DNA from: Phlegmacium glaucopus | Taxonomy: Eukaryota > Basidiomycota > Agaricomycetes > Agaricales > Cortinariaceae | Assembly (NCBI GenBank): GCA_015039465.1 | Contig: MU130043.1 | Span: 32,069-96,068, forward strand | DNA: 64,000 bases | Reading direction: 5' to 3' | Shown here: positions 3,291 through 44,172 of the stretch, piece after piece | How positions within the stretch are numbered: position 1 is the first letter of the stretch | Layout of the letters: every line of letters begins with the position of its first letter | Translations under genes and position numbers: made by a program | The notes under the pieces: model-generated | What the model was told of the DNA's origin: nothing | Databases searched by the model: none | Seen by the model: the letters and a program-made list of their open reading frames with translations, nothing else

Positions 3291-4382
3291 ATGACAACAG
3301 CTGATCTAGAAAATGAAGACATCCTCAGCGACTCGCTTGAATTTCTGGGAGGCAAGCCAGTTATTGATGACAGCAATATTTTATATGGTCCTTTGATTCT
3401 ATCACTCGCACCAAAGGTGTGGCTCATAATCTAGCCACTGTTTAAATCTCTTATGATGCTTGAACACTTTTTTTTAGGAAGGCAAAGTGCGCTGCCAGTA
3501 ACCTTGATGATTCAGATCGTCAGATAATAATAATTTAAAGGCGAACACGTTACTAGCAGATCATCTTTTTTCTCCGGCTTTGTTCCTTGCAGAGCGTATA
3601 GAAAGGGGCATGCTTACAGTTCGAGGGCGAACTGGCAAGTGACGATGTTTGAACAATTCCCAACAGACTGATAGTATTGATTTTATATCCAGTGATTGAG
3701 TTGGGTGCTGGCTGTGCTTTGCCTTCCCTTCTTTTAAGCACCCTATCGGAACCCCCATCTTTAATTGTCGTGACGGATTATCCTGACGAGGGAATCTTGG
3801 GAAATCTGAAAAGGAACGTTGAAGAAAACCACGATGTTGTGACAAAAGGTTGCTCAGTTCACTCATATGGGTATGAGTGGGGAACCGATGCTTCGCACCT
3901 TTTGTAACTTTGTTTCTCTGTCAATTTTTTCATTACCATCTCATGTTCCGCACCCCACAGGAATATTTTGGGCGCAGATAGCAATCTCGTGCTAGGTTAT
4001 GATATTATGATATTATCGGATCTATTGCACTTCTCTACCTCTCACGATGCCTTGATCACCTCACTTCAAATGCTTCTCGCAAAATCGGAAAGTGCTAGAA
4101 TTTATGTTGGGGTAAGTCATTTCGCCGGAATTCCAACTCTACTATGCAAACCGAAGGAAATCACATTTCTAGGCAGGTTCCTACACGCGGACTGAGGTCT
4201 GCGAAACTTTTATCAAAAAGGCCAAAGAAGTTGGGTTGATGTTCGCAGAAATCCTCGATGAAGGTCTCGAAAAGAAATGGTTAGGCAATATGACAGTGAA
4301 TAATCTGAACAAAGAGGCATTGGGAGTTCGGAAAGCTGCATGTCGATATTGGATTGGCTGCTGGTCCGCAGATAACATCTAG
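3291..4382 (+). CDS. efm7: Protein N-terminal/lysine methyltransferase, EFM7/NNT1 family
   Basis: A SAM-dependent methyltransferase of the nicotinamide-N-methyltransferase-like fold. The yeast relative Efm7 methylates the N-terminus and a nearby lysine of elongation factor eEF1A in the cytosol. Six exons close in frame to 266 aa: 3291-3416, 3478-3486, 3541-3634, 3693-3903, 3961-4111, 4173-4382. Motif I for SAM binding is VIELGAGCALPS, followed by VVTDYPDEGILGNL (acidic loop), the YGYEWGTD motif, LGYDIMILSDLLHF, and a final GSYTRTEVCETF. Two oddities: exon 2 is only 9 nt (Glu-Gly-Lys), and the intron at 3635-3692 has a GC donor (gcaagt) instead of GT. The start ATG is supported by the duplicate copy at 27.5 kb, which keeps the same ATG and first residues. 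Family identity is confident; substrate is by homology. Confidence 0.88.
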
Positions 4383-5536
4383 TAGGCAAATGGTTCTACG
4401 GATTTCCAACCTACCGCAGACGTTACCAGACGCTTCGATGCATTCTCCTTCCGAAATTCTTTTCAAGGAAATGCAAGCGCGCTTACCTATTCCTTATTCC
4501 ATCTGAGCTATAAAACTCTGCCAAAATCTCATCTGGTCATCTTCCATGTCACCAGAAGGACCCATGTCAACTTTGGTATTGTGTAAGCCATCTGCGCTAG
4601 CTAGTATGTCTACCCCAGCTACAAACTGTGATCTACCTACCAATTGGCAGTGAAATTTGGGGAGCTTACAAGGGCTCAAACCGAGTACCTTTATCACTGA
4701 TGTCGAATCTCAAGTCTTTCAATTCATGGACAGTCCCGAAAGCGCCTCAGCCTTGACGTCCTCCTTTCGTCCTCCTTTCGTTTGCTATATCAACTAATCA
4801 TTGTAAGCTGATTATACGAGCATCGCCCACGCGCTCCGCAGTTTCCGTCGGTGGCGGGCTATATAGCCCCTAACGTTCACCTTGGACAGCTACACAACTT
4901 GACATAATAGTCTATACTACACTCCTACCATGGACACCTTGCGTGCTCGGATCAAAGATCACGGTGGCTGACCACCTGGACTTGAAGTTGTTTAAGCTTC
5001 AGCTCGCCTTTCTTTTCCTCTCATATTAGTATTACTTCCACTTGGCTTGGACTCGGCGCACATTCAATTTGATCCTCGTCCGGTCCCTTTTCATGGCTTC
5101 ATCTGTCTTGAAACCCGACAGTCGGATACCTCAAGTCGTGATCAGCCCTCAAATGTCACCCGCAGAGGCTAGGATCCCCGCTCATTGGGGACCCTTTCAA
5201 CGGGGACAAGACTCTTGCGAAAGTACCGCTTTTCGATCCTGGCCTATTGAAGATGAAGGCCAAATGACTGCAATCCGAGTGTCGGCCAAGTCATGTAATA
5301 TATATATATCACGACAATAGTAAGTCCTTCTAAAGTCCTATCGTCAAAGGTTGATTTAGAACAACGACACCTGATAACAACCAATAATATTGGACACATG
5401 CCCAACGTTCATGGGGACAAGTTAAAGTAATCCATGTGAACATAGTCTGACAGAGAACAACAGCAACTTTTAGTTTCCCTAGAGTCAGCCGACCACAAAG
5501 CTTTGAATTTGTTCTCACCTCGCACTGTCAACGAAA
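4383..5536. other. Intergenic region, possible small minus-strand exon
   Basis: No convincing gene. A minus-strand open stretch at 4494-4697 ends in an acidic, protein-like sequence (GDMEDDQMRFWQSFIAQME) and has splice-like borders upstream, so it could be the last exon of a small unrecognised gene. A plus-strand stretch at 5042-5320 is open for 92 codons but matches nothing I know. A direct duplication of 'tcctcctttcg' lies near 4760-4780. The last few hundred bases should hold the promoter of the downstream acetyltransferase. Confidence 0.35.
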
Positions 5537-6211
5537 ATGGAATCCCCGAAACATCAACCAGGTCTCATCACTATCAGGTCCCATTTTCCAAGGTCACGAA
5601 TACTCCTCCGCTCACCTATAACAAGTGATGCCTATTCCTTCGTTGCCCGTGTACAAGACCCCTTATGCACGATTTATCTGCCGCATTTGCGATCACCAAA
5701 AGTGCCAATTACGTTGGCTTCCAACGAGAGCCAAATCGCAGCATGGCGTGCCGAATCATTGATCCAGTCGCTTATCCTGGCAGTCGTTTTACTTCCTGAT
5801 ACACGTGGAGTTGAAAAGGATGAAACCATAGAGAAAAACAGTGATACAGCAACCATCGGAGAAACTGGATTCGGGTCTATTGACTATGCCAATAAAACGG
5901 CAGACTGTGGGATTATGCTGAATAGCAGCCCAGAGATACGCGGCAAAGGTTATGCCATGGAGACGCTGGAGATGATGTTCGCGTATGGATTTGATCATTT
6001 GAATTTGGAGACCGTTGAATTTGGAACACATCGTGATAATATACCGATGCGAAGTCTGTTGGAAAAGAAATTTGAAATTCCGGCAAAGTGGAGGGAGGAT
6101 AGAAATGATTGGGTGTTCAATGCGACAAAAGACTGGTGGAACTCATATGAGTCATATCTAGATAGTTCGGGGGAGAAAATAAGCGTTGAGGTTGAAGAGA
6201 CCTGTGTGTAG
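5537..6211 (+). CDS. GNAT family N-acetyltransferase (RimJ/RimL-like)
   Basis: A single-exon gene of 224 aa that starts at ATG. The layout is that of RimJ/RimL-type GNAT enzymes, which transfer acetyl from acetyl-CoA to a protein N-terminus or a small amine. An N-terminal RLRSP-like strand ('ILLRSPITSDAYSFVARV') is followed by IGETGFGSIDYANKTADCGI (beta strands of the core). The acetyl-CoA pyrophosphate-binding loop is 'EIRGKGYAMETLEMMF', matching the Q/RxxGxG/A motif. Then come 'LNLETVEFGTHRDNIPMRSL' and a C-terminal tail. The acidic tail after residue 200 looks unstructured. The substrate cannot be told from sequence. It is one of few intronless genes in the window. Confidence 0.85.
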   Translation: MESPKHQPGLITIRSHFPRSRILLRSPITSDAYSFVARVQDPLCTIYLPHLRSPKVPITLASNESQIAAWRAESLIQSLILAVVLLPDTRGVEKDETIEKNSDTATIGETGFGSIDYANKTADCGIMLNSSPEIRGKGYAMETLEMMFAYGFDHLNLETVEFGTHRDNIPMRSLLEKKFEIPAKWREDRNDWVFNATKDWWNSYESYLDSSGEKISVEVEETCV

Positions 6212-8648
6212 TTTGGGGATTCCAGTTGTGCAGTATCTCTGGTTCTATTTGACCGAGCTTAAGACCGTGTTTAAGTGGACTATCCGTACTCTCAGAGGTT
6301 TCTATCCAAAGTATGCTATAACTGAGGTCACTGTCGACCCCTTTGACAGTTGTCCAAGAGAAGAGTCAAGCTAGTCAAGACCGATACCAGCAACAACGAT
6401 CGGCCCAAAGATTCATGAGGGTCGATGGTTTGACTTAGATCCTAGCTCGTATGTAGCTCTCGTTGCTGGGCCATCCACCAGACCAGTATCAAAGGTAGCA
6501 CTAGAATGAAGGATGAACGTGAGTCCGGAATTGTATACTATCAACCGATTTCAATGGTTCGGTTCCCCGACACCGACGCCGCTACTGGTAGTACTAATAG
6601 CGCGGCGGCCGCCTTCACTTTAGACAAGAGAAAGGAACAGGACCAGAATATTTGAAGCCGAAGGCTTGGATCCAAAATGCCAGTCGAAGAAACCATGAGA
6701 CAGGTCGGAAGTTCGAAATTATTGGAGCCACTGCTAGAATATCCCCGGCGGCCTTCAAATCTTGGACACGGTCTCTAACTCCTTCCAATACTTATTGTCA
6801 GGAGTTGCCAGGGGAGCATAAAAAGCCTGAGCGCTCGCTCCAAAGGTCCATATCCAGTATAACAACCCCTTTCATCATGAAAGCAATATTAACCTAACGT
6901 TAAACGTTAATCTCCCTACTACCTTCTATCACTTGTTAGTGGTCGTATAGAATTTCTTTTCTTACTAGAAGCCGTCTTAATGGCTTTCAATCAGAGGGTT
7001 GCTTTTAATATTAATATAACATTACTTCAGTAACATCTTCACTATACCCCAAAACTGCCATGTCAAACATGATATGATCGATTATCAAGTACCCCCTAAA
7101 ATCCGAACTTTTTTACGAGGGACTAAACGCCACAAAAGCGAGACTCAGGCTCAGAGAACCTAAGGGGGCTTGAAGTCAACTTGAATGGATTAAAAATCAC
7201 GCAAAAAAGCGAAAGAAAAAAGAAAAGAGAAAGTTACGCCCCTCTTAAACCAGCCCCTCCTCTTCTCCGAGGATAATTGATAGCCCAGAAAGAAGCCTCA
7301 AGTTAATCGATGTCAACTGAAAGGGATGTATTAATATTACGATCGAGCGCCAAGGAGCATTGAAATTACAGTAATAATGACAACTGTACTTACTAAGGTT
7401 AACAAAGACCGATTTTTTCCGGTAGGCGTCGGTCTACGGTCAACCATCCCCACTGCACGCACTGCCTCCCTTCATGATAGGGGGTCATGATAAAGGTCAC
7501 CAACTGGCAGTGGGATCAAAAGTGCCAGCACGAGACCCGGACAGTCGGTGAACTTCTTTCATTGAAGAAGTTGTGAAAGAACGCTATACCCATTTTGATA
7601 CCCATTACCATCACCCAAAGTTGTAATAATTTGTAAATCACACTTCTTGGCGTCATGTAAGGGTGTCAAACAAGTTTACTAAAATTAAATAAATGTTCTC
7701 TTCTTCTTTTCTAGTTCCCTTCTTTATTAAAATGCTTTTTCTACGTACACCATGCTAATCATAAAAGGGTTGGTCATTTATCAATGAGCTGATCAACGAG
7801 TTGCTCATAATTACAAGCATGATGTATATAAAGCTTGGAACTCTCTATGCACCGCGGGGTCATTCATCGCTACAGTCCAAGGTCGACCTGTCATGCCTGT
7901 CATGGGTAAGTGATATCATATGGCCGCTTCGCCCGGACAGAATTGTCGGGCAATATCAATCAACCGGTGCGCGACTCGGACTCGGACTGGCCCAATGAAG
8001 AATCAAGTATATAGCAAAACGAATTTTGGAAAGAAGACTGAGATCACATATGATGAATTGTTGTAATCATAAAGTACAAGCCCGAGACTCTATGTATGTA
8101 AACCGATGACAATAGTAATACAGAATTTTGATTTAGGTATGGTGGCGTGGTGGTGGAGTCGAATAATGAAATGAAAGTTTAAGAACCTATATACTTTGAC
8201 TCTTCGCTCCCCAACTTGACAGGCTAATAGTGCCCGGTCAATATCAGGGCGAAGAGAAGAAGAATGAGGATTAAAACGGTTTGGCCGGGGAGGACGGTTA
8301 CGGCATGTCGGGTAGGAGGGGGGAAAAGAGAATACGGCATAATGAAGGTAGCTCAACTCGACAACAAACCCTTGAAAGAGGCGAGCAAACAGAATTACGA
8401 TCTATCAAGTTCACAACGCCTAGAAAAGAGTCCATTGAAGAGTAATGACCGTGTGTTTTTCTGAAAGGATCACGCCGCGCATAAGACAACGATAATCTGC
8501 AAAAAAAGAAAACGAAAACGAAAAGAAGGTAAAATGGAACACTGTATGAGGATATCCATGAATCATTGGGCGTGGGGGACAAGGGATCGTGCAAAGGGTA
8601 TCTGCTAATTTTTCTCCGGAAGCCAGGGTGGGGTGTTGGCGATATTAT
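6212..8648. other. Long intergenic region without a recognisable gene
   Basis: Only short, stop-riddled frames are present and none resembles a protein family. Near 6890-6912 there is a small palindromic cluster (TAACGTTAAACGTTA). The part next to 8648 is the 3' flank of the minus-strand membrane-protein gene. An unannotated non-coding transcript cannot be excluded. Confidence 0.5.
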
Positions 8649-28118: not shown

Positions 28119-31100
28119 ATGTCGAGTGAAAGACCATCTAAGAACAATCGTGTAACCAAAGCTATTCGATATGTCAAGGGGAAGTTCTCTTCTCCTGTTC
28201 CTTTGTCACACCCGGCCACACCATTGTCGATCGACGCGGATCCAACCTCTGATAACCGTATGGTAACGACAGATGCTGGAACAAGGCGAGCAGCAGAATT
28301 CCCTGGTTGCTTTATTATTTACTCAATCTCCTCGTTCTTTCAAGCCACTTGCCACTTAACATGGTCCCAGTGATCAGCGTCGATCACGCTGCTACAGCGG
28401 TCATGACCGCGGACGCAGACACAGTGTCCCTCCCAAATTCCGTACCAGTTCCAGCGTCGACACCTAGTGTGCCCAGGCAACTTGGTTCTGCTAGCAACCC
28501 AGGACCAGAAATTCCGTCTACGGTCAGCGTCCGTGTTGCGTTCACGACTGTCGTTATTAATGCTCCTCATTTAGGATGTGGCTCCAATGTCTGCCTTCCA
28601 AGGTGCTCACGATGTACGCCTGCATAATTCAACGATTAACATGGCCAACGCTGTAAGCATCATTCCTTCTGTTCAAAAACCAATATATGTACTGATGGTC
28701 CTATCGTCGTGTTGGATGACTCAGATTCACATCCATGTGCCGTCCAATGCCGATGGAGATGAACAATTGAACTCTCGAGTCATAGTGGGCAATACAATCT
28801 TTTGGAGTCAGATAATCCGCGCTGAATGCTAGTCCATAGGATGCACTACTACATGAGAAGCTCTTGCCACGCGCTCAGTTTGCAGAATACGACGCAGCAT
28901 GTCCACGCAACGCATGTACGGAGAACACTCGCAAGGCCATCCTCGATTCGCTACGAGTATGGGCCAGTGATGATACAACCACAGAGGTATACTGGCTCAA
29001 CGGGATGGCTGGAACAGGCAAAACGACAATTGCTTACTCTTTCAGTGAAATCCTCCATGAAATGGGTTCCCTTGGTGGTACCTTCTTCTCTTCTCATTTC
29101 CGGGCTGATACCAGTGATGTTCATTGCATCATCCCCACCATCTCCCTTCAGTTGGCCAAGTATCTCCCTTCTCTGCCCCAACTTATCTTGGATGTAGTAA
29201 AAACTGATCCAAGCACTGACTGCATATCTTGGAGGATTAGCAAGCAATTCCTGAATTTCATGGTCAGACCACTGACTGCGTATAAGGATAGTATCAGAGG
29301 AGGAGTAGTTCCAGTTATTGTTCTTGATGCTCTGGATGAGTGCTCTGACCAGTCCCTTGTGGCTGAGTTACTTTCTGTGATCTCAAAGTATAGTAAATCT
29401 CTTCCAGTCAAGTTCTTCATCACTAGTCGTCCAGAGATTGTGCTCAAGGAGACTTTTGATCATTCTTGGGATCATTCCAACTTCATCCTTCATGAGGTTG
29501 AGAAGGAGATTGTCAAGGCTGATATTGAGCTGTATATTAAAGCTTGCTTGCTTGGTGGCCAAGTAAAGTACAATAAGCATGATTGGCCTCCTCAGGCTGA
29601 ACTTGAAAGCCTTGTCAATATGTCTGGCACCTTGTTCATTTATGCAGCAACTGTCTGCAAGTATATTGCTCAGAAGGGTAGTTCCAGCATGCCTCAGCGT
29701 CTTTCAGATGTGGTTAATATGACATTGGAAGCAACATCTGATGTAACCCATCCACTGGATATTCTTTATGAAAGAATTTTGGATGCTGCCTATGCCTTTA
29801 CAAATAAAAAGGAGAGGGAAAAATTAGACATGGTTCTCACAGCTGTTGTATATGTCTATAATCCTCTTTCTATGACTGCCATCAGTGATTTGATGGAAAT
29901 GCCCATAGAACACATTGTGGCTGCCCTTTCTTCTCTTCACTCCTTGATATGTATCCCATCTCAAGACCATGATATGCCCATTTCAACATTTCATGCTTCC
30001 TTCTATGATTTCATCAGTAATCAAATTGTTTCCTCAAAGCACTACCTTGACCCATGTATTTCACATAGGCATTTGGCACTTCAGTGTCTGTCCTTGATGG
30101 AGAAAGAATGGTCAGAGGAAGAAAGAGTATCTTACTTGGCAGAGAGGAGATGTGGAGATATTTCTGAATCTCTTGCATATGCTTGTGGTAGCTGGGTTTC
30201 ACATTTCACATATGCAGACAACAACAATGAAATTGATGAATTGAAGCATTTTTTCCAAAGACATCTTCTGCGATGGATGGATTGTTTGAGTATTTTAGGA
30301 AGGTTGGGAATGGCAATGCATTCATTGCATGAGCTAGAAAGTTGCACAAATGTAAGTCAGCACATTGCTAAAGATGAATTACACTTATAACAGGAATTAG
30401 GCTGAGAAGCTGTTGAAGGTGACAGTGATTGATGCAGAAAGATTCCTGAAGGAAAATTATGATTTTATTAAGAATAACAGCCTTGAAGGATGTCCTTCAG
30501 CATTGGTTTGGCTGCCAGAAAAATCAGATATTTGGAAAACATATGGAAGTGGGATGGATTGTCCATGGAAGCTCTGCTTTGGAAGGAGAAAGGCATGGAG
30601 CCTGACTGAAGCAGTTCTAAGGCATTCAGCAAAAGTCAAATCTGCTGTCTTCTCTCCTGATGGTATACATATTGTGTCTGCATCTTGGGATAGCACTGCA
30701 CAGATCTGGAATACAGCCACAGGAGAGCATGAGGCAGAGCTGAAACATTCAGAATTGGTGAACTCTGCTGTCTTCTCTCCTGATGGTATGCATATTGTGT
30801 CTGCATCTTATGATAACAGTGCACAGATCTGGAATGCAGCCACAGGAGAGTGTGAAGCAGAGCTGAAAGGACATTCAGGAAGGGTCAACTCTGCTGTCTT
30901 CTCTCCTAATGGTATGCATATTGTGTCTGCATCTTTTGATAATACAGCACGGATCTGGAATACAGCGACAGGAGAGTGTGAGGCAGAGCTGAAAGGACAT
31001 TCAGGATGGGTGAACTCTGCTGTCTTCTCTCCTGATAGTAGACAGGTTGTATCTGCATCTTTTGATAAGACTGCACGGATCTGGAATACAGCCACAGGAG

Positions 31101-32607
31101 AGTGTAAGGCAGAGCTGAAAGGACATTCCAAAAGGGTTAACTCTGCTGTCTTCTCTGCTAATGGTATGCATATTGTGTCTGCATCTTATGATAACACTGC
31201 ACGGATCTGGAATACAGCCACAGGAGATTGTGAGGCAGAGCTGAAAGGACATTCAGGATGGGTGAACTCTGCTGTCTTCTCTCCTGATGGTATACATATT
31301 GTGTCTGCATCTAATGATAACACTGTGTGGATCTGGAATACAGCCACAGGAGAGTGTGAAGCAGAGCTGAAAGGACATTCAGGAAGGGTCAACTCTGCTG
31401 TATTCTCTCCTGATGGTAAATATATTATGTCTGCATCTGAGGATAGCACTGTACAGATCTGGAATATAGGCACCAGAAAGTGTAAGGCAGAGCTGAAAGG
31501 ACATTCAAGAAGGGTTAACTCTGCTGTCTTCTCTCCTGATGGTATGCATATTGTGTCTGCATCTGAGGATAACACTGCACGGATCTGGAATACAGCCATA
31601 GGGGAGTGTGAGGCAGAGCCTGCAGGACATTCCAAAAGGGTTAACTCTGCTGTCTTCTCTCCTGATGGCATGCATATTGTGTCTGCATCTAATGATAACA
31701 CTGCATCGATCTGGAATACAGTCACAGGACAGTGTGAGGCAGAGTTGGAAGGACATTCAGGATGGGTTGAATCTGCTGTCTTCTCTCCTGATGGTATGCA
31801 TATTGTGTCTGCATCTAGGGATAACACTGCACGGATCTGGAATACAGCCACCAGAAAGTGTGAGGCAGAGCTAAGAGGACATTCAGGATGGGTGAACTCT
31901 GCTGTCTTCTCTCCTGATGGCATGCATATTGTGTCTGCATCTAGGGATGGCACTGCACGGATCTGGAATACAGCCACAGGGGAGTGTGAAGCAGAGTTGG
32001 AAGGGCATTCAGGATGCGTCAACTCTGCTGTATTCTCTTCTGATGGCATGCATATTGTGTCTGCGTCCAATGATACCACTGTATGGATCTGGAATACAGC
32101 CACAGGAGTGTGTGAGGCAGAGCTGAAAGGGCATTTAGAATGTGTTAACTCTGCTATCTTCTCTCCTGATGGTATGCATATTGTATCTACATCTGATGAT
32201 AACAAGGTATGGATCTGGAATACAGCCACAGGAGAGTGTGAGGCAGAGCTGAATGGACATATGTATATTCCATCTATATCTGACAACAGTCAATTACCTG
32301 GTTCATCATCAATTCCTGATGGTATTTATATCCACCATCATGCTCATGGCCAACTTCATGCCTCAATACAGTTGTCATTCCTTGATATATATCAAGACAC
32401 AATATTCCACACCCTGAACCACAGTAAAATCTGGATTGCATCACCTTTCCATCAGCCAACATCTGTCAGCTATCACTTGTCCAAAATTTGCCTTGGATAT
32501 GCAACAGGAAAAATTTTGCTTCTAGAAGTATGTATTGACTTTATACTGTATTCCACATTTTTATTTCATTGCTCAATGTTTTCTCTCAAATATAGTTTCA
32601 ATGCTAG
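28119..32607 (+). CDS. NLR-type receptor: NACHT NTPase with 13 WD40 repeats
   Basis: STAND-class innate-immunity/allorecognition receptor, cytoplasmic. Seven exons (28119-28305, 28371-28528, 28575-28652, 28725-28784, 28840-30351, 30401-32527, 32596-32607) join in frame to 1377 aa. The N-terminal 140 residues are disordered; then comes the SAFQGAHDVRLHNSTIN motif common before mushroom NACHT domains. The NACHT domain follows: Walker A GMAGTGKTTIA, Walker B VIVLDALDECSD, sensor FITSRPE. A winged-helix/helical linker carries FHASFYDFI and LKENYDFIKNNSLEGCPSAL. Then 13 WD40 units of 42 aa, consensus GHSxxVNSAVFSPDGMHIVS, and a tail ending LLLEFQC. No effector domain (HET, lipase, HeLo) is evident at the N-terminus. 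Repeat units are nearly identical, and the variable sites fall where known hypervariable ligand-contact sites lie. Complete and apparently functional. Confidence 0.93.
30605..32265 (+). repeat. 13 near-identical 126-bp WD40-coding repeats
   Basis: Direct tandem repeats of about 126 bp (42 codons) with very high DNA identity; the first two units are slightly shorter (GHS reduced to HS). Positions right after GHS (GW, GR, KR, RR, GC), the residue after SAS (W, Y, F, N, E, R, D) and two to four residues after the following Asp vary between units, while the rest is almost fixed. This is the pattern of concerted evolution plus diversification described for Podospora het-d/het-e/het-r. Confidence 0.92.
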
Positions 32608-33139
32608 TTTCTTAAGCTTGTGGCAGGGCATGCCAGTTATGGTTCCTTTTCACAAGTTTTCACAAGAACACAATGTTGTGCAAATGACTGGAAAAAGATT
32701 GTTTTGTAACAAAATATATAGACCATAAGACAAATATATATCTATTTAGTTGTCAGCAAAATAAAGTATGAAAGCATTGTGATGAAATATACTGGTAACT
32801 GTTAGGGGACTGTTAGAGAACACTATATATTTACTTGACCTATTATGGACACTCTCCATCTCTCTCTCCTCTTCTCATATGCATCAACCTGCCATAGATT
32901 CTTATCACATGAAATTTACCGTCGTCAGCAATTGGTGATAACTCTAGGGCATAATGATACACGCATGAGTGGCCAGGCACAGCACGCCAGTTGATGCGCT
33001 ATTATTCACAATGACAAGGACAGTGGAGCAGCGTTTTCTGGGCAGATAGGGTAAGAAGACGGAGTTGTGAACGTTGGAAGGATGTAACTTACCTCTGATG
33101 ATAATTTCCGCCGCAGACCTTTCTTTTCTCATAATCAAG
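32608..33139. other. 3' flank of the NLR gene
   Basis: AT-rich downstream region with no gene recognised. The frame that continues after the last splice site is intronic read-through, not coding. Confidence 0.5.
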
Positions 33140-34327: not shown

Positions 34328-34456
34328 TCCGAGTCCGATACTTTTACTTTTTGTTCATTGAAGACGAAGGACTAATGTGGTTACCAGAATCCTTGAGGTA
34401 TATAGGTCGTTTTCTTTCTTACAAGCATCATACACTTGCCATCGCTAAATCCTAAT

Positions 34457-36917
34457 ATGCAGTTCAAATGGCCAGCAGCTTTCTCAGTTTTGAATGGTCC
34501 CCGATTTTCTCAACCATCGAATGTCCCTCTTCGGAACGATAAACTGCATTGCCATAAAACTCTATGGGGGCTATCCGGTCATAGACTTACAACTCGTAAT
34601 GTTAGACGCGATGCGTTCTCAAACACGACGTACAGTGCTCCGTTATCGACCTCTACGCACATACTTCAGACTGGACTGAACAAGATATGGAGAAAATTTC
34701 AGCCGTCCAAAAATAAACCATCAACACAAGCTTATCCCTCCTATTCGTCTGGATCTCGAGCTTCATTCTTCTCCGCCAGCGATAAACAGCCCGAACAGGA
34801 TGTCGTTGACTATTCAAAACCAATGGAAGCGTTTACACCTCGGCTTGCCGAATCTCAACCCGATCCGCCCACACCAGCCTGTCACCAGTACTCGCCTGCA
34901 TCACCGGTTCTCTCGTCCTCTCTTCTAGATACACCAACAGAAAGGCAGGCCGAACAGGATGTTGTTCACCATTCAAAGCCAGTGGAAGCGTTTGGACCTC
35001 AGCTTGCCGAACCTAAACCTGATTTGCCTACACCAGCCTGTCACCAGCACTCACCTGCATCACCAGCTCTCTCGTGCTCTCTTCCAGCAGAAATGCAGCC
35101 CGAAGTGGAAGCGTTTAGAGCTCAGCTTGCCGAACCTAAACCTGATTCGCCTACACCAACCTGTCACCAGCACTCGCCTGCATCACCAGCTCTGTCGTCC
35201 TTTCTTCTAGGTGCTCCAACAGAAAAGCAGCCCGAGGGGCCTATTGCCCGCCATCTAAAGTGAGTTAGAGCTTTAAACCTTTCTCACAACTCAGTTTCTC
35301 ACTCTTTATCCGTCTCTTAGAACTGGGGTTGCTCCCGATCAAGTTACTCCCAGACATGACGTTACCTCTATCTTCGACATGGAGGACTTGAACCCTGTCC
35401 CGACATGGAGGTCTGCGCGCATAGTAGAAACCGACTTTGACCGAATTTTGAACAACTTGGGTTCTCGATCATCCGAATTCACGTTAACAATACAACCATC
35501 CTGGCCCGCAACCGCATTGTTCGCTATTCAAAACATCGCAACCCCACGACAGAAGCAGATTGTCATCTATCAGCCAAAGCCTATTAGAGCTTTCAATCCC
35601 GTCCCACAGCTTGCGCTAGCTGCTCTGAATGCTCTGAAGCTCACCCCTTCTCCGTCTGTAGATAACCTCTATCCGTTTCCCTCTGGCCAACATACCGTTT
35701 TTCAACCTCTGACCGAATACACAATGTCCACTGAACCAAACTCTGGGATCAATCCTCTTTCTCTTGCTATGGTCTCGTCTTCTAGAGTCGCTCAGAATCA
35801 ATATTCGCATCAACAGTCTACGCCTTTCGTTCCATCTCCGAAACAAGCTAAACGAAAGCTTTCTTTCAGACCTTTTTCTCCCGAAGAGGACACCATCTCG
35901 CTTCCTCCGTCTCAATCAAATTACCTTGGTATCGCGGATTCTATTTGGAGTCTTGATCACGATTTCTCTGTTAACACAGGGTCCAGTCTGCTGTTGTCCC
36001 CGATCTTCTTAGGCCTTCCTCAACCATTTGAAGTTCGCCCTTCTGTACAAGCAGGGACCCTAGCGCCGCCTTCTAACCAGCTTAAGATCACAATCACAGT
36101 TCCGGAGGGATATTTCAATGCTGACGATTGCAGGGATCGCGTCGCCCGTTTCCTATTTGCTAGAGCTGGTCAACTTGAAAACTCTCTCGTCGTTGTATGG
36201 CAAGAATCCTTTGTTGATAGCGCGGGTACTGAGGGATTCAACTTTCTCAAGACTCTCTTCGTTCATCTAGACAAGGCCATGCTCAATTCGAGTCGGACGG
36301 CGCTTTCTAGCTTCAGTAGGCTTGCAATTACTATCCCGGACTGTGTCAAGCCTGTTACTTCATGCTACGGTCTTGGGCAGTGTGGTGAGGACGACGGTAT
36401 CGATTTGGCGAATGCTTCGGGTTTACTTGAATTTTCTTGGCATGGCGATTTTAATATCTTTGCGAAGAACTTCATAAATTTTCCATGTGCAAACTTGACT
36501 GTTCTTGATGTGACGAGTTCCCATATCAGCCTTGACGATGCAGCAACTCTTCTGCATTCCTTCCCAGAACTTGAAGAAATCAGTATCGGGACTATCCAAG
36601 ATAACAATACCGGTGACGGCGTTCTGTTCAAACCTAGCAGCATTTACCAAAAAGCACTTCCCAATGTTGCTCGTCTAAGTCTCGATTCTGTCGTTGCTCT
36701 CCATTCTCTCTTAGCCAGAGTTGCCTGGACGCCCGGGCCACCGGTCGAACTTTCTTTCACCCTTAGAGAGAATGCGATACTCGATGTAATGGACTTTCCT
36801 CTTCCTTGGCAAATGTTTTCGGACATCACCTTCAACTGTCACTTCACGCAGCAAGACCTATCTCAGCTGAGAGATCTATTTCCGCGCGTAAAATACAATG
36901 ATATTGGACCAGACTAA
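34457..36917 (+). CDS. Hypothetical protein with three ~50-aa Pro-rich repeats and an LRR-like C-terminus
   Basis: Two exons (34457-35259, 35321-36917) join in frame to 799 aa. Residues about 120-265 are three tandem units with the core EAFxxxLAExxPDxPTPACHQ followed by SPASPxLSSSLLxTPTE, low in complexity and probably disordered. Residues about 270-530 are also low-complexity. The C-terminal 270 residues look folded: 'LKITITVPEGYF' then leucine-rich segments (NLTVLDVTSSHISLDDAATL, FPELEEISIG, LPNVARLSL) of the sort seen in mushroom F-box/LRR proteins, but I see no F-box. The neighbouring minus-strand gene ends 22 bp away (convergent). The function is unknown. The ATG at 34457 is the first in frame. 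Confidence 0.7.
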
Positions 36918-41013: not shown

Positions 41014-41960
41014 TCATATCACATCACATATATTGAAGTCTGTCTGGGAGAGACTAGATAAAAACCCAATCAACTCAAAATCAATCCAATATTGCTCTCC
41101 CACACCACAGTGATTCAGAATATCCCATATATAATGATATATTTCCCTTGCACTCTTCCTACTTGAGATGAAGCTGGAAAGGCACAGGTCAGACAGATCA
41201 AATTCACCAATGCAAAGTGGAACAATACATACACAGTTCTCCAAAGCAATCTGTGTGAGTTTCTGAGCAAAAGTGGACTTGCTAGAATTCTCAATGCCTT
41301 CAACTTCCACAAAGAGCCTTTTTTCTTCTTCAAAAATCTTCTCTACAGCTGCAGTGACAGTTACATGCTTGCTGGATGACTTGTAAACATCGATTGCAGA
41401 GGCCAAGTACTTGATACTGGATGATGGTGCTGGGTCCCACAAGTGAAATGAATACTCTAGAATGATAGAAAATGCTGTATTGAAATGAAAATAGAATAAA
41501 ATACAAGTCATGGATAATCACAGACCAATACCAAACACAGCAATTTGTTGTGTTGCAGGAGAAGGACTGATCTAAGGATAGATAATATTATGAGACTGCA
41601 AAAATCAGCTATGATTAACAACACTCACAAATAAGAATTGGATGTCCAGTTTGTGTAGATCATTTGGCTACATAGACACATAAATTCATTGCCATAAAAC
41701 TGTAGAAAAGGAATATTATGAATGTTACATTCTGAAGGAAATTACAAAGTACATACCAACAATTTTCAATAGTCCTTGCACTCACATCCTGGTAAATAGA
41801 TATATGAAGAAATGCAAAGGAAACATGAACACAATAAACATGCCTGGTATTTATCAAATCCATTGCATTCAAACATTCCGAGGGGTAAACAAATAAAATT
41901 GAAATAATTACAATCTAAAAAGGAAAGTTGGAAATTACGAGTCCAGAAAAAGAATCAATG
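41014..41960 (-). CDS. P-loop NTPase domain, thymidylate-kinase-like, probably 3' part of a longer gene
   Basis: The largest exon starts near 41460. It reads EYSFHLWDPAPSSSIKYLAS, then 'RLFVEVEGIENSSKSTFAQK' followed by LTQIALENC. The latter resembles the Walker A of nucleoside monophosphate kinases (VxEGxDGxGKST), but with Ser-Ser-Lys instead of Gly-Lys. A later SSRKSAREIYHYIWDI fits the family's arginine-containing segment. Upstream, short exons with good splice sites can be read (ISPSPATQQIAVFGI; a block with NEFMCLCSQMIYTNW), connecting towards the micro-exon array. The altered P-loop suggests a degenerate or non-catalytic kinase. Ends at a stop at 41014. Whether it is joined to the GTPase upstream on this strand is open. 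Confidence 0.5.
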
Positions 41961-41961
41961 A

Positions 41962-42600
41962 CTTACAAACTGTCATGACCAGAGAACACAAATTCATGAT
42001 GAATGGACAGAAAGTTGCAGGATAGAAAACAATGACTTACTTGCTGTTGAGGCACCAGACAAGGCAAACTCATGATGAGTGGTCAGAATGTTCCAGGACA
42101 GGAATCAATGACTTACAAACTGTTGAGGCACCAGAGAAATCAAACTCATGATGAGTGGTCAGAATGTTCCAGGGCAGGAATTGATGACTTACTTGCTGTT
42201 GAGGCACCAGAGAAAGCAAACTCATGATGAGTGGTCAGAATGTTCCAGGACAGGAATCAATGACTTACTTGCTGTTGAGGCACCAGAGAAATCAAACTCA
42301 TGATGAGTGGTCAGAATGTTCCAGGACAGGAATCAATGACTTACTCCCTGTTGAGGCACCAGAGAAATCAAACTCATGATGAGTGGTCAGAATGTTCCAG
42401 GGCAGGAATCAATGACTTACTCCCTGTTGAGGCACCAGAGAAACAAACTCATGATGAGTAGACAGAATGTTCCAGAACAGGGATTAATGACTTACTCCCT
42501 GTTGAGGCACCAGAGAAAGCAAATTCATGATGAGTGGGGAGTGTGTCCTGAGACAGAAAATCATGGATGGGTGGGATAGAAATTAGATGCTTACCACCTG
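41962..42600 (-). repeat. Tandem array of 76-bp units, each an intron plus a 3-nt exon-like triplet
   Basis: About eight head-to-tail units; the six central ones are 75-76 bp and nearly identical. On the minus strand each unit reads gtaagtcattgattcctg... with a branch-point-like CTGAC and ends ...ggtgcctcaacag. After the AG come exactly three bases and then the next gtaag. The triplets, in transcription order, are GTG, GGA, GGA, GGA, CAA, CAA, TTT, CAA, TTT (at 42597, 42498, 42423, 42347, 42271, 42195, 42119, 42043, 41969). The intron part (73 nt) is of typical length for this organism. If all are spliced, the array would add nine codons' worth of sequence in 3-nt steps without changing frame. 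Confidence 0.85.
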
Positions 42601-42864
42601 CAAAGATTGCAGTTAGTGATGATATTTTACAATGGTTCTTAATAGCTACTCTGTGTTGTAAATGTTAGTATTCTGTTCATGATAATTAAGGGGTAGTATT
42701 CACCACAAAATGTGGAAACCACAGCACCATGTTTTCCAGCAATGCAATAGGTTCAAGAACACTTGGTTGTTCCTGATGCCCAGTCTTAAAAATTATGGGG
42801 ATCAATTCACTGGGGAATGGTTTGTTGAATGCACAACATGTGGAATAAATTCAGTGGAATAACA

Positions 42865-44172
42865 TCACCTGTTCACTGCATACGTGATGGATAGCTCTAG
42901 ATTGTTTCGCTGTGTAGATACAAACAACCGCTTTAAATTAGTGTTGTTTAGCACCGCTGCTACAGTGTCCGCCAGTTGACGACAATCCGCTCCCGGTTTG
43001 TTCATATCTAGAACTTGTGTATTAACTTGTGTCACCATAAACACAGGCAACAGAATGCTTGCATTACCTCGCAAGTATACATGACCTTTTGGAGGAAAGT
43101 CTAGCTCGTGAAAGATAGGTAAATATTCCTTTTCAAAGTCGGCCACCGCGCGATCAGCAGTCTGATTGACTGCATCAGCCGGAGGAATACCCTCCTTTAT
43201 CAGCTTGCCGTACGCTACATCTTCTAAAGCATCAAATTTTGTGAACATGGCGACTACTGGAACTGCGAAAAATGTCCTTCAAACAATGATTTCCACAAAC
43301 AACCAACAATCTAATACTCACCACTCCCTGTACCGCACTCTCCAAAGAAACTCCGCTCTGCTGCTGTGAATGGCCTTTCGTCATCCATCGGGATGCAGTA
43401 CCTATAGAGGCAAGAAATGGATTGGACGAAATTCCAAACTGACGATAACCCACCATATGACATGTAATTGTTCACTTAGGTCGAGCATCTCCGATCTCTG
43501 TGTTATGAACTGTTTTACTTTGTTAAGTTCCTCGACAGCCCCAGCCTCAAAACCACGGGAATCGTGGAAAACGAATCGAGGGTTGCTCTTGAATATCAGC
43601 TCATTCTCGATATTGTGCATCCCGCGCTGAGATAATAAAAGCTCATCGTCGATGCAAAATACGAAGTCATACATACCTTCACAGAAGGCTTGAGTATCGA
43701 GTTTTTAATCTGATGATCCATATTTCATCAACATCATTACCTCTATATCGACCTTTTTTCAGTGCGATTGCGTACCTTCTTCCCTTTGGTATTGAATATC
43801 TCTGGTTGCTCTGCCGTGTTGCAGACCTTTTGAAGGATGGTAGTCTTTCCTGCATTTGCTCGGCCTATGACGAGAACGCGAAAGCGATGGGCCATCGCTC
43901 GAATTTCCTTGGCTCGATCATCGGGCAAGGCAGTTGATGTTGATTCAGATTGTGATGTTGCACCTACAAGACAACTGAATTATGAATATATTCTATTGGA
44001 AAACAATCCGACCTGTGGAGGTATGAAACTGTCCAAACGCATCCTGAGTCTGGCTTGCAGCAGATGGTTGCCGATTCGAACCTGATAGGATAGTTCTGAG
44101 AAAGTGAACAACTTGCTTTGGCAGCGGAATCTGACTTATGAGCCGACCAAACTTTTCCTGCAATTTTTGCAT
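42865..44172 (-). CDS. P-loop GTPase (mushroom AIG1/septin-like G-domain family)
   Basis: Seven exons on the minus strand give about 330 aa, starting MQKLQEKFGRLISQIPLPKQ at 44172. The G domain has FRVLVIGRANAGKTTILQKV (G1/Walker A), 'RGMHNIENELIFKSNP', FVFHDSRGFEAG (G3, DSRG), LHVIWYCIPMDDERPFTAAE, VPVVAMFTKFDAL (G4, TKFD) and GHVYLRDMNKPGADC, then STQRNNLELSITYAVNR. This family is expanded in mushrooms and often annotated just as P-loop NTPase; its cellular role is unknown. The frame meets a TGA right after AVNR at 42865, but a GT donor overlaps that point (AACAG|gtgatg), so the gene may instead continue into the micro-exon array and the kinase-like domain. Confidence 0.85.

Follow-up and report, generated by a model that had tools for sequence, protein, structure and literature searches.

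A GTPase gene of Phlegmacium glaucopus, a basidiomycete of the family Cortinariaceae that we take to be ectomycorrhizal, harbors nine predicted exons of three nucleotides each. These are set between phase-0 introns and are probably spliced, one codon per exon, into a short variable peptide (probability about 0.77). The gene is located on the minus strand of the window, i.e. the whole stretch of 64,000 nucleotides from contig MU130043.1 that was analyzed. The array is bounded upstream by an exon ending in LWFPHFV and downstream by an exon starting with IVIISILFV. In the direction of the gene, its parts are:

42869 to 44172, minus strand: G-domain (GTPase) part, six predicted exons (44172-44013, 43963-43776, 43709-43677, 43626-43454, 43401-43322 and 43262-42869) that join to 342 codons without a stop
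42810 to 42868, minus strand: short intron gtgatg...ccccag, 59 nt, phase 2, also in the annotated models P0011-P0013
42704 to 42809, minus strand: exon SELIPIIFKTGHQEQPSVLEPIALLENMVLWFPHFV, with a phase-0 end directly before the array, present in P0011
42595 to 42597, minus strand: first one-codon exon, GTG (Val), in the context ctttgcag-GTG-gtaagc
41967 to 42498, minus strand: regular array of eight one-codon exons, GGA (42498-42496), GGA (42423-42421), GGA (42347-42345), CAA (42271-42269), CAA (42195-42193), TTT (42119-42117), CAA (42043-42041) and TTT (41969-41967), with introns of 71-73 nt
41915 to 41966, minus strand: last array intron, gtaagtcattgattc...ctttttag, 52 nt, with a different 3' half
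41786 to 41914, minus strand: first post-array exon, IVIISILFVYPSECLNAMDLINTRHVYCVHVSFAFLHISIYQD, in phase with the whole-codon reading when the exons are joined
41014 to 41511, minus strand: open frame with the C-terminal domain (...FSIILEYSFHLWDPAPSSSIKYLASAIDVYKSSSKHVTVTAAVEKIFEEEKRLF...IALENC), contained in P0009

The annotated protein P0011 represents a shorter choice of the same six G-domain exons, the last of which it interrupts by an additional intron, and scores above the Pfam cut-off for MMR_HSR1. It belongs to the MMR_HSR1-like GTPases, and its P-loop G domain shares homology with those of other agarics. The G domain has 1297 homologs at E <= 0.001, and the named ones among the 120 matches listed are from Agaricomycetes. 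The last predicted G-domain exon ends in AG before gtgatg and is followed by the 59-nt intron and the exon SELIPIIFKTGHQEQPSVLEPIALLENMVLWFPHFV; the counterpart of this exon ends in YFPQIV or YFPHIV in four loci of a second array family described below. Downstream of the array, the next exon opens with ATT GTA ATT ATT (IVII...), and the annotated protein P0009 starts at MDLIN in the same frame. The C-terminal domain of the window gene corresponds to CIATAIIAEHSYFIW...IALDNRL in Laccaria proteins, and a Pfam scan of the C-terminal exon gave nothing above the cut-off. The annotated models, themselves predictions, stop at the array or begin after it or within its last intron.

Tandem Repeats Finder places the array at 41952-42537, with a period of 76, 7.8 copies and 90% matches. 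On the minus strand the unit reads ...AG-NNN-GTAAGTCATT..., and the triplets follow each other as GTG, GGA, GGA, GGA, CAA, CAA, TTT, CAA, TTT, each between ...AG and GTAAG.... A previous sequence-only reading had listed these four triplets correctly. Its nearly constant intron of 73 nt holds for the regular array, where introns measure 71-73 nt; the intron after GTG is 96 nt long and different. The branch-like CTGAC that it described is present in five of the seven regular window introns, and CTGTC stands in most rows listed for other loci. The form of the last intron is similar in seven other loci where the array end was read (L009-L015). When joined, the exons of the window give ...LWFPHFV-V-GGGQQFQF-IVIISILFVYPSECLNAMDLIN... 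without a stop.

The array has relatives elsewhere in the genome. A DNA search with it returned 48 matches, comprising the window array and arrays at eight other places (L009 to L016) that are up to 6 kb long; the upstream part of L012 is masked, and only the array start is readable in L016. A second paralog family has a 56-nt period and introns of about 53 nt, again with 3-nt exons. Its introns are no more alike to those of the 76-nt family than shuffled letters, and the four paralogs read share 36-37% identity over the G-domain exon. When exon length was left free between 0 and 15 nt, the exons measured exactly 3 nt at 225 of 227 junctions in the 76-nt family (the others 2 and 7 nt) and at 154 of 155 in the 56-nt family (the other 1 nt). 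The earlier description of 3' and 5' splice sites exactly 3 nt apart thus extends from the window to both families. The four 56-nt loci hold 37, 40, 46 and 60 recognized one-codon exons, from a segmentation that missed some units and left one gap of 731 nt in L066. The regular part of these arrays is followed by five more 3-nt exons (E, N/D/H, H/Y, T, K/V/G), which are set between introns of unique sequence. In the 60.5-Mb genome, the strict 56-nt-family pattern ACAG-NNN-GTAAGT-N30..58-ACAG-NNN-GTAAGT occurs 753 times, versus 16 for the reversed pattern, far more often than chance would produce. With a gap of 50-78 the counts are 153 versus 38, the latter inflated, we think, by a mirror-image assembly artefact in the 76-nt repeat. 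The four 56-nt loci contribute 68 strict pattern pairs that accompany 156 units, and a rough extrapolation would put the 56-nt family at about 1,700 one-codon exons genome-wide, beside 226 counted in the 76-nt family.

The triplets were analyzed for their potential to be read as codons. In the regular part of the 56-nt family (156 triplets) the three frames contain 0, 6 and 33 stops, compared to 10.5, 10.0 and 22.0 expected from shuffling bases within each exon position. A fuller segmentation of the four loci gave 183 3-nt exons with 0 stops. All four loci harbor an in-phase exon before the array (RIVHKTTSSLLKNERDGVDVMANVLRYFPQIV in L064), and the exons behind it, DSISKIMGSI-LTGLPTNINLEETTYCAIAILGHLSFF..., are open in the phase of the array. 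In L064, three post-array exons join in phase to DSISKIMGSI-LTGLPTNINLEETTYCAI-AILGHLSFFLHKES..., and the predicted string comprises 60 residues (YVPLFADDDLGW...ENHTK). In the 76-nt family the whole-codon frame shows 1 stop with 226 triplets versus 18.9 expected, and 0 of 3000 shuffles were as low. A shifted frame, made up of the second and third base and the first base of the next triplet, is also poor in stops here (2 versus 13.8 expected), and the 76-nt family alone therefore does not fix the frame. This shifted frame, with the G-domain exon joined straight to the first triplet, was tried first and gave mostly open peptides in the 76-nt family, ending in L-stop. It is ruled out by the 56-nt family, where it contains 6 stops versus 0 in the whole-codon frame. 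It is also displaced by the short intron and the exon ending in FPHCV that the annotated models use, which place the array in phase 0.

The cleanest single codon test is the shortage of TAA. In the 76-nt family, none of 60 NAA triplets is TAA, versus 15 TAT among 42 NAT (P = 2.8e-7). Pooling both families gives P = 7e-6, with only 2 NAA in the 56-nt family. TGA is found in 0 of 22 NGA in the 56-nt family, versus 5 TGT or TGG among 13 NGT and NGG (P 0.004), and in 1 of 46 versus 2 of 9 in the 76-nt family (P 0.07). Taken together, a reading of the triplets as codons, one per exon and in frame with the exons on both sides, is well supported by the sequence. The suggestion that such an array would build a peptide one codon at a time has thus gained support from frame and stop avoidance. 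One triplet of L009 is TGA and one exon of L013 measures 2 nt, so that damage or the skipping of units is conceivable in some copies. The 80 triplets of L015, which is the most diverged 76-nt array, translate to EGPLGKNFGVLDATSRYIIDEGIRRKRQGTGARVLGIGSRLDLLQKGETLAEANRFSRQRFIREKLKDRDQQFDVLQDKQ with no stop, a string that seems to be of higher complexity than those of the other arrays.

Relatives of the gene carry a comparable stretch at the same place. In Laccaria proteins the G domain is followed by FPH or a like motif, a variable stretch and then the C-terminal domain; in LACBIDRAFT_325699 of Laccaria bicolor the variable stretch is DYLKRDFDADFDSDFDADAYDFDA. A homolog search with the Laccaria tail returned five proteins, query included. 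The strings after FPH in three relatives are YHNDFFNFDFFEFCDDFD (P0133), LEYHHREEEEYHHHHHYLEYEEYL (P0020) and ELRELERHNELFRNEEELNKHARARAREELREELERNNEEEKEEKELW (P0026, which is without the C-terminal domain), and all are of low complexity. These three sequences likely represent transcripts, judging from their unbroken frames on short contigs. Their strings resemble in kind those predicted from the arrays, such as DDDLGWAADWFGFDFD (L064), QHYSYQHYQEKHSLYQKYQKHYKHY (L013) and EYREEEQ (L012). Composition differs between paralog groups, with D/F/G/L in the 56-nt family and Q/H/Y or G/R/E in the 76-nt arrays.

Change between units is concentrated in the triplets. Across the 22 units of L009 the introns differ on average by 0.9% and the triplets by 65%, a 70-fold concentration of change in the triplet. 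In the other 76-nt arrays this ratio ranges from 55 down to 3.2 (L015), and it is about 3 in the 56-nt family because the introns of this older family diverged too. The claim that diversity sits in the exonic bases is accordingly almost literally true of the young arrays and has to be softened to a ratio of about 3 for the older ones. Among 1689 unit pairs with identical introns from six loci, the triplets differ in 94%. Variation is not spread along the unit, as would be typical for a neutral minisatellite. In 101 units of the six loci the three triplet positions reach entropies of 1.96, 1.77 and 1.12 bits, compared to 0.84 for the largest intron value and 0.47 for the next (these entropy and pair counts took only units with exact 76- or 56-nt spacing). 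The objection of the sequence-only reading to a neutral minisatellite is borne out by these values. The stretch of about 271 nt that leads up to the array is 98.2% identical between L009 and L013, yet their codon strings have different lengths and match no better than shuffled ones. Among seven 76-nt arrays (21 pairs), two pairs of codon strings matched better than shuffled at P below 0.05, which is about chance level. Neighboring codons are not more alike in the 76-nt family. In the 56-nt family they are identical in 16.4% versus 10.0% of cases (P 0.008), a weak trace of duplication.

These observations are consistent with the following model. Splicing would join the nine codons of the window gene to V-GGGQQFQF between the G domain and the small C-terminal domain. 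The introns would be GT-AG introns of ordinary size and, since they are in phase 0, every triplet would be a whole codon and units could be gained, lost or skipped in frame. Each unit of codon and intron could be duplicated, deleted or skipped with frame and splice sites intact, in line with the earlier proposal that alternative splicing could change the length of the peptide without breaking the frame. The arrays would grow by tandem duplication of these units, and diversifying selection, or a targeted process, would keep changing the codons while the introns are homogenized. Neither of the simpler processes provides a full mechanism, as exchange of units should homogenize the codons with the introns and point mutation would need very strong selection. 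Most tentatively, the peptide might serve an immune-like or self/nonself GTPase as its recognition surface, a function that has been proposed for the repeats of fungal NLRs; this recognition role is a guess by analogy.

The one-codon exons might also be spliced into a tail that acts as a disordered linker, which evolves fast and in which overall composition counts for much more than the individual residues. The biased composition, which differs by paralog group, and the low complexity in relatives fit such a linker, and we regard it as possible without favoring it. However, a tolerant linker needs no codon change that is tens of times faster than that of the introns, as observed in L009 to L012. 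Going beyond the preferred model of a variable peptide under diversifying selection, about fifty GTPase genes could act as a combinatorial peptide generator. Interchangeable one-codon cassettes, targeted rewriting of codons tens of times faster than introns and exon skipping would then yield many in-frame peptides and a somatically variable recognition repertoire. We consider this speculative and rather unlikely.

The splice sites of the individual units bear on whether the exons are used. At the 81 junctions of L015, AG and G+1 are preserved without exception and T+2 in 99%, whereas the other 17 bases of the same motifs are kept at a mean of 85% (54 to 98, one 99%). Only 2 of 382 triplets end in C, versus 70 of 342 codons in the G-domain frame of the same gene (P = 2e-22). 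A TA end, by which a TAG acceptor would arise, is seen in 8 triplets versus 24.5 expected and in 3 versus 12.5 expected in the two families. A GT end, by which a second donor would arise, is seen in 8 versus 23.1 and in 7 versus 19.5. We read the retention of splice sites and the avoidance of TA, GT and C ends as a probable mark of splicing on each exon. The array could instead be removed as one long intron, or all microexons be skipped, joining ...FPHFV to IVIIS.... With all introns in phase 0 such skipping keeps the frame, and the annotated models leave out most of the array. But then the triplets would be free for stops or C-ends, and TAA, TGA and C-ending codons are rare; in L015 no other bases are preserved better than the internal splice sites, and the relatives that look spliced carry a peptide at this place. 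Removal of the whole array is thus improbable.

At least 51 array clusters were located in the genome, counting separately two neighbors on contig C220 that may be one long array. Of these, 48 have a same-strand G-domain exon within 9 kb upstream, in a comparison of 52 array places, partly drawn from the matches listed among 224, with 62 of 85 G-domain rows. For the other three clusters, the upstream sequence is masked as N in one, the nearest match lies just beyond 9 kb in another, and the third has no match among the rows used. Introner-like elements spread among genes, whereas the arrays stay in tandem within one gene family, and no dispersal of copies to unrelated genes was seen. Because 48 of 51 clusters adjoin a G-domain exon and not unrelated genes, tandem duplication of a unit of codon and intron within one gene family is preferred over the new route of intron multiplication that had been put forward. 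In young arrays, neighboring codons resemble each other no better than codons in shuffled order, and this speaks against simple duplication. Together with near-identical introns beside unrelated codons, it would fit an introner-like intron that was inserted repeatedly between the codons of a once continuous exon, the codons being old and the introns new. Such an element must strike every codon boundary and hardly anywhere else, given that 225 of 227 junctions are exactly 3 nt apart. Moreover, L009 and L013 combine 98% identical flanks with codon strings of unequal length that match no better than shuffled, and the copies have not spread to unrelated genes. We therefore give repeated insertion little credence. 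A neutral minisatellite with chance splice-like motifs, its triplets varying by drift or slippage, would account for a tandem repeat in which units are duplicated and vary in length, but is already contradicted by the 70-fold concentration of change in the L009 triplets, the stop avoidance, the location beside one gene family and the presence of the same 3-nt slot in two dissimilar repeat sequences, and is highly improbable.

Building a peptide from codon-sized exons has a precedent. In PMC4986451 and PMC3689799, genes of Tuber melanosporum, named there as the expanded NACHT-ANK family, are described as diversified by alternative splicing of codon-sized (3-bp) microexons. PMC10197012 states the same for the codon-sized microexons of this species, and all three cite Iotti et al. 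2012. The P. glaucopus arrays likewise consist of exons of exactly 3 nt, many in a row and in frame, in an expanded paralogous family. Going by these descriptions, both cases share tens of 3-bp exons, an expanded family, a mycorrhizal fungus as host and the diversification of sensor proteins. They differ in that the Tuber nank genes encode ascomycete NACHT-ANK proteins, whereas the basidiomycete genes encode GTPases and have two dissimilar introns and about 50 loci. The window gene lacks the NACHT and ankyrin domains of nank, P0011 being an MMR_HSR1 protein; four scanned pieces contained no ankyrin match, and NACHT matches there were all below the cut-off. Alternative splicing has been reported for Tuber nank, while the arrays of P. 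glaucopus are known here from DNA. The novelty of a micro-exon diversity generator, as first suggested, is thus partly lost. The kind is already known from Tuber, and the present data would add another phylum, a GTPase family, two dissimilar intron backbones, about 50 loci and a measured contrast between codons and introns. No report of codon-sized microexon arrays in agarics was found among the titles and abstract openings surveyed, which is weak evidence of absence.

Other systems are similar in part. The WD40, ANK and TPR repeats of fungal NLRs (PMC4986451) also combine a concerted backbone with variation focused on few codons, but their backbone is translated protein, whereas here it would be removed as intron. 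Intron gain by tandem genomic duplication (PMC4974935) likewise yields new introns from a duplicated genomic segment, but in P. glaucopus the duplicated unit consists from the outset of one codon with a complete intron, and dozens of copies follow one another. Fungal introner-like elements and stwintrons (PMC4457414, PMC8469720) have in common with the arrays the multiplication of related introns.

If spliced as predicted, the exons would be near the lower limit of exon size, with dozens in a row, and would test how an intron-definition spliceosome finds 3-nt exons. After the NACHT-ANK genes of the truffle, the GTPases of this basidiomycete would then be another instance, seemingly of separate origin, in which a fungus keeps a variable peptide as single codons mounted on intron backbones, and this would suggest that a diversity system evolved convergently in mycorrhizal fungi. 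As the annotated models inspected miss the one-codon exons, similar tails could be concealed in further agaric genomes. That the codons of one array change while its introns do not raises the question of selection versus targeted mutation.

Stretches of about 2 kb in which the array unit is mirrored, i.e. reversed but not complemented, occur in L014 (about 3850-5735) and L016 (about 5085-7215, both in array sense). They are located on contigs C203 and C249 and adjoin runs of T or A. What might pass in these two loci for a second "76-nt satellite", and hence for new biology, was rejected, being the exact reverse, not the complement, of the main unit. We know of no biology that produces mirror-image DNA, and the stretches look like an assembly or gap-filling error. 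The counts exclude their 48 triplets, among which one TAA (L014) appears on backward reading, and their junctions include three more that deviate from 3 nt (1, 2 and 6 nt).

Two other repeat-bearing frames are present in the window. Tandem repeats of 159 and 123 nt at 34787-35207 lie inside a plus-strand open frame (34436-35263) that has no Pfam match. At 28864-32728 on the plus strand, about 9 kb from the GTPase array, a NACHT-like open frame scores above the cut-off for NPHP3_N and just below it for NACHT. It is followed by 13 WD40 matches on 126-nt repeats that are 86% alike, and thus represents a fungal NLR-like gene whose internal repeats are highly conserved.
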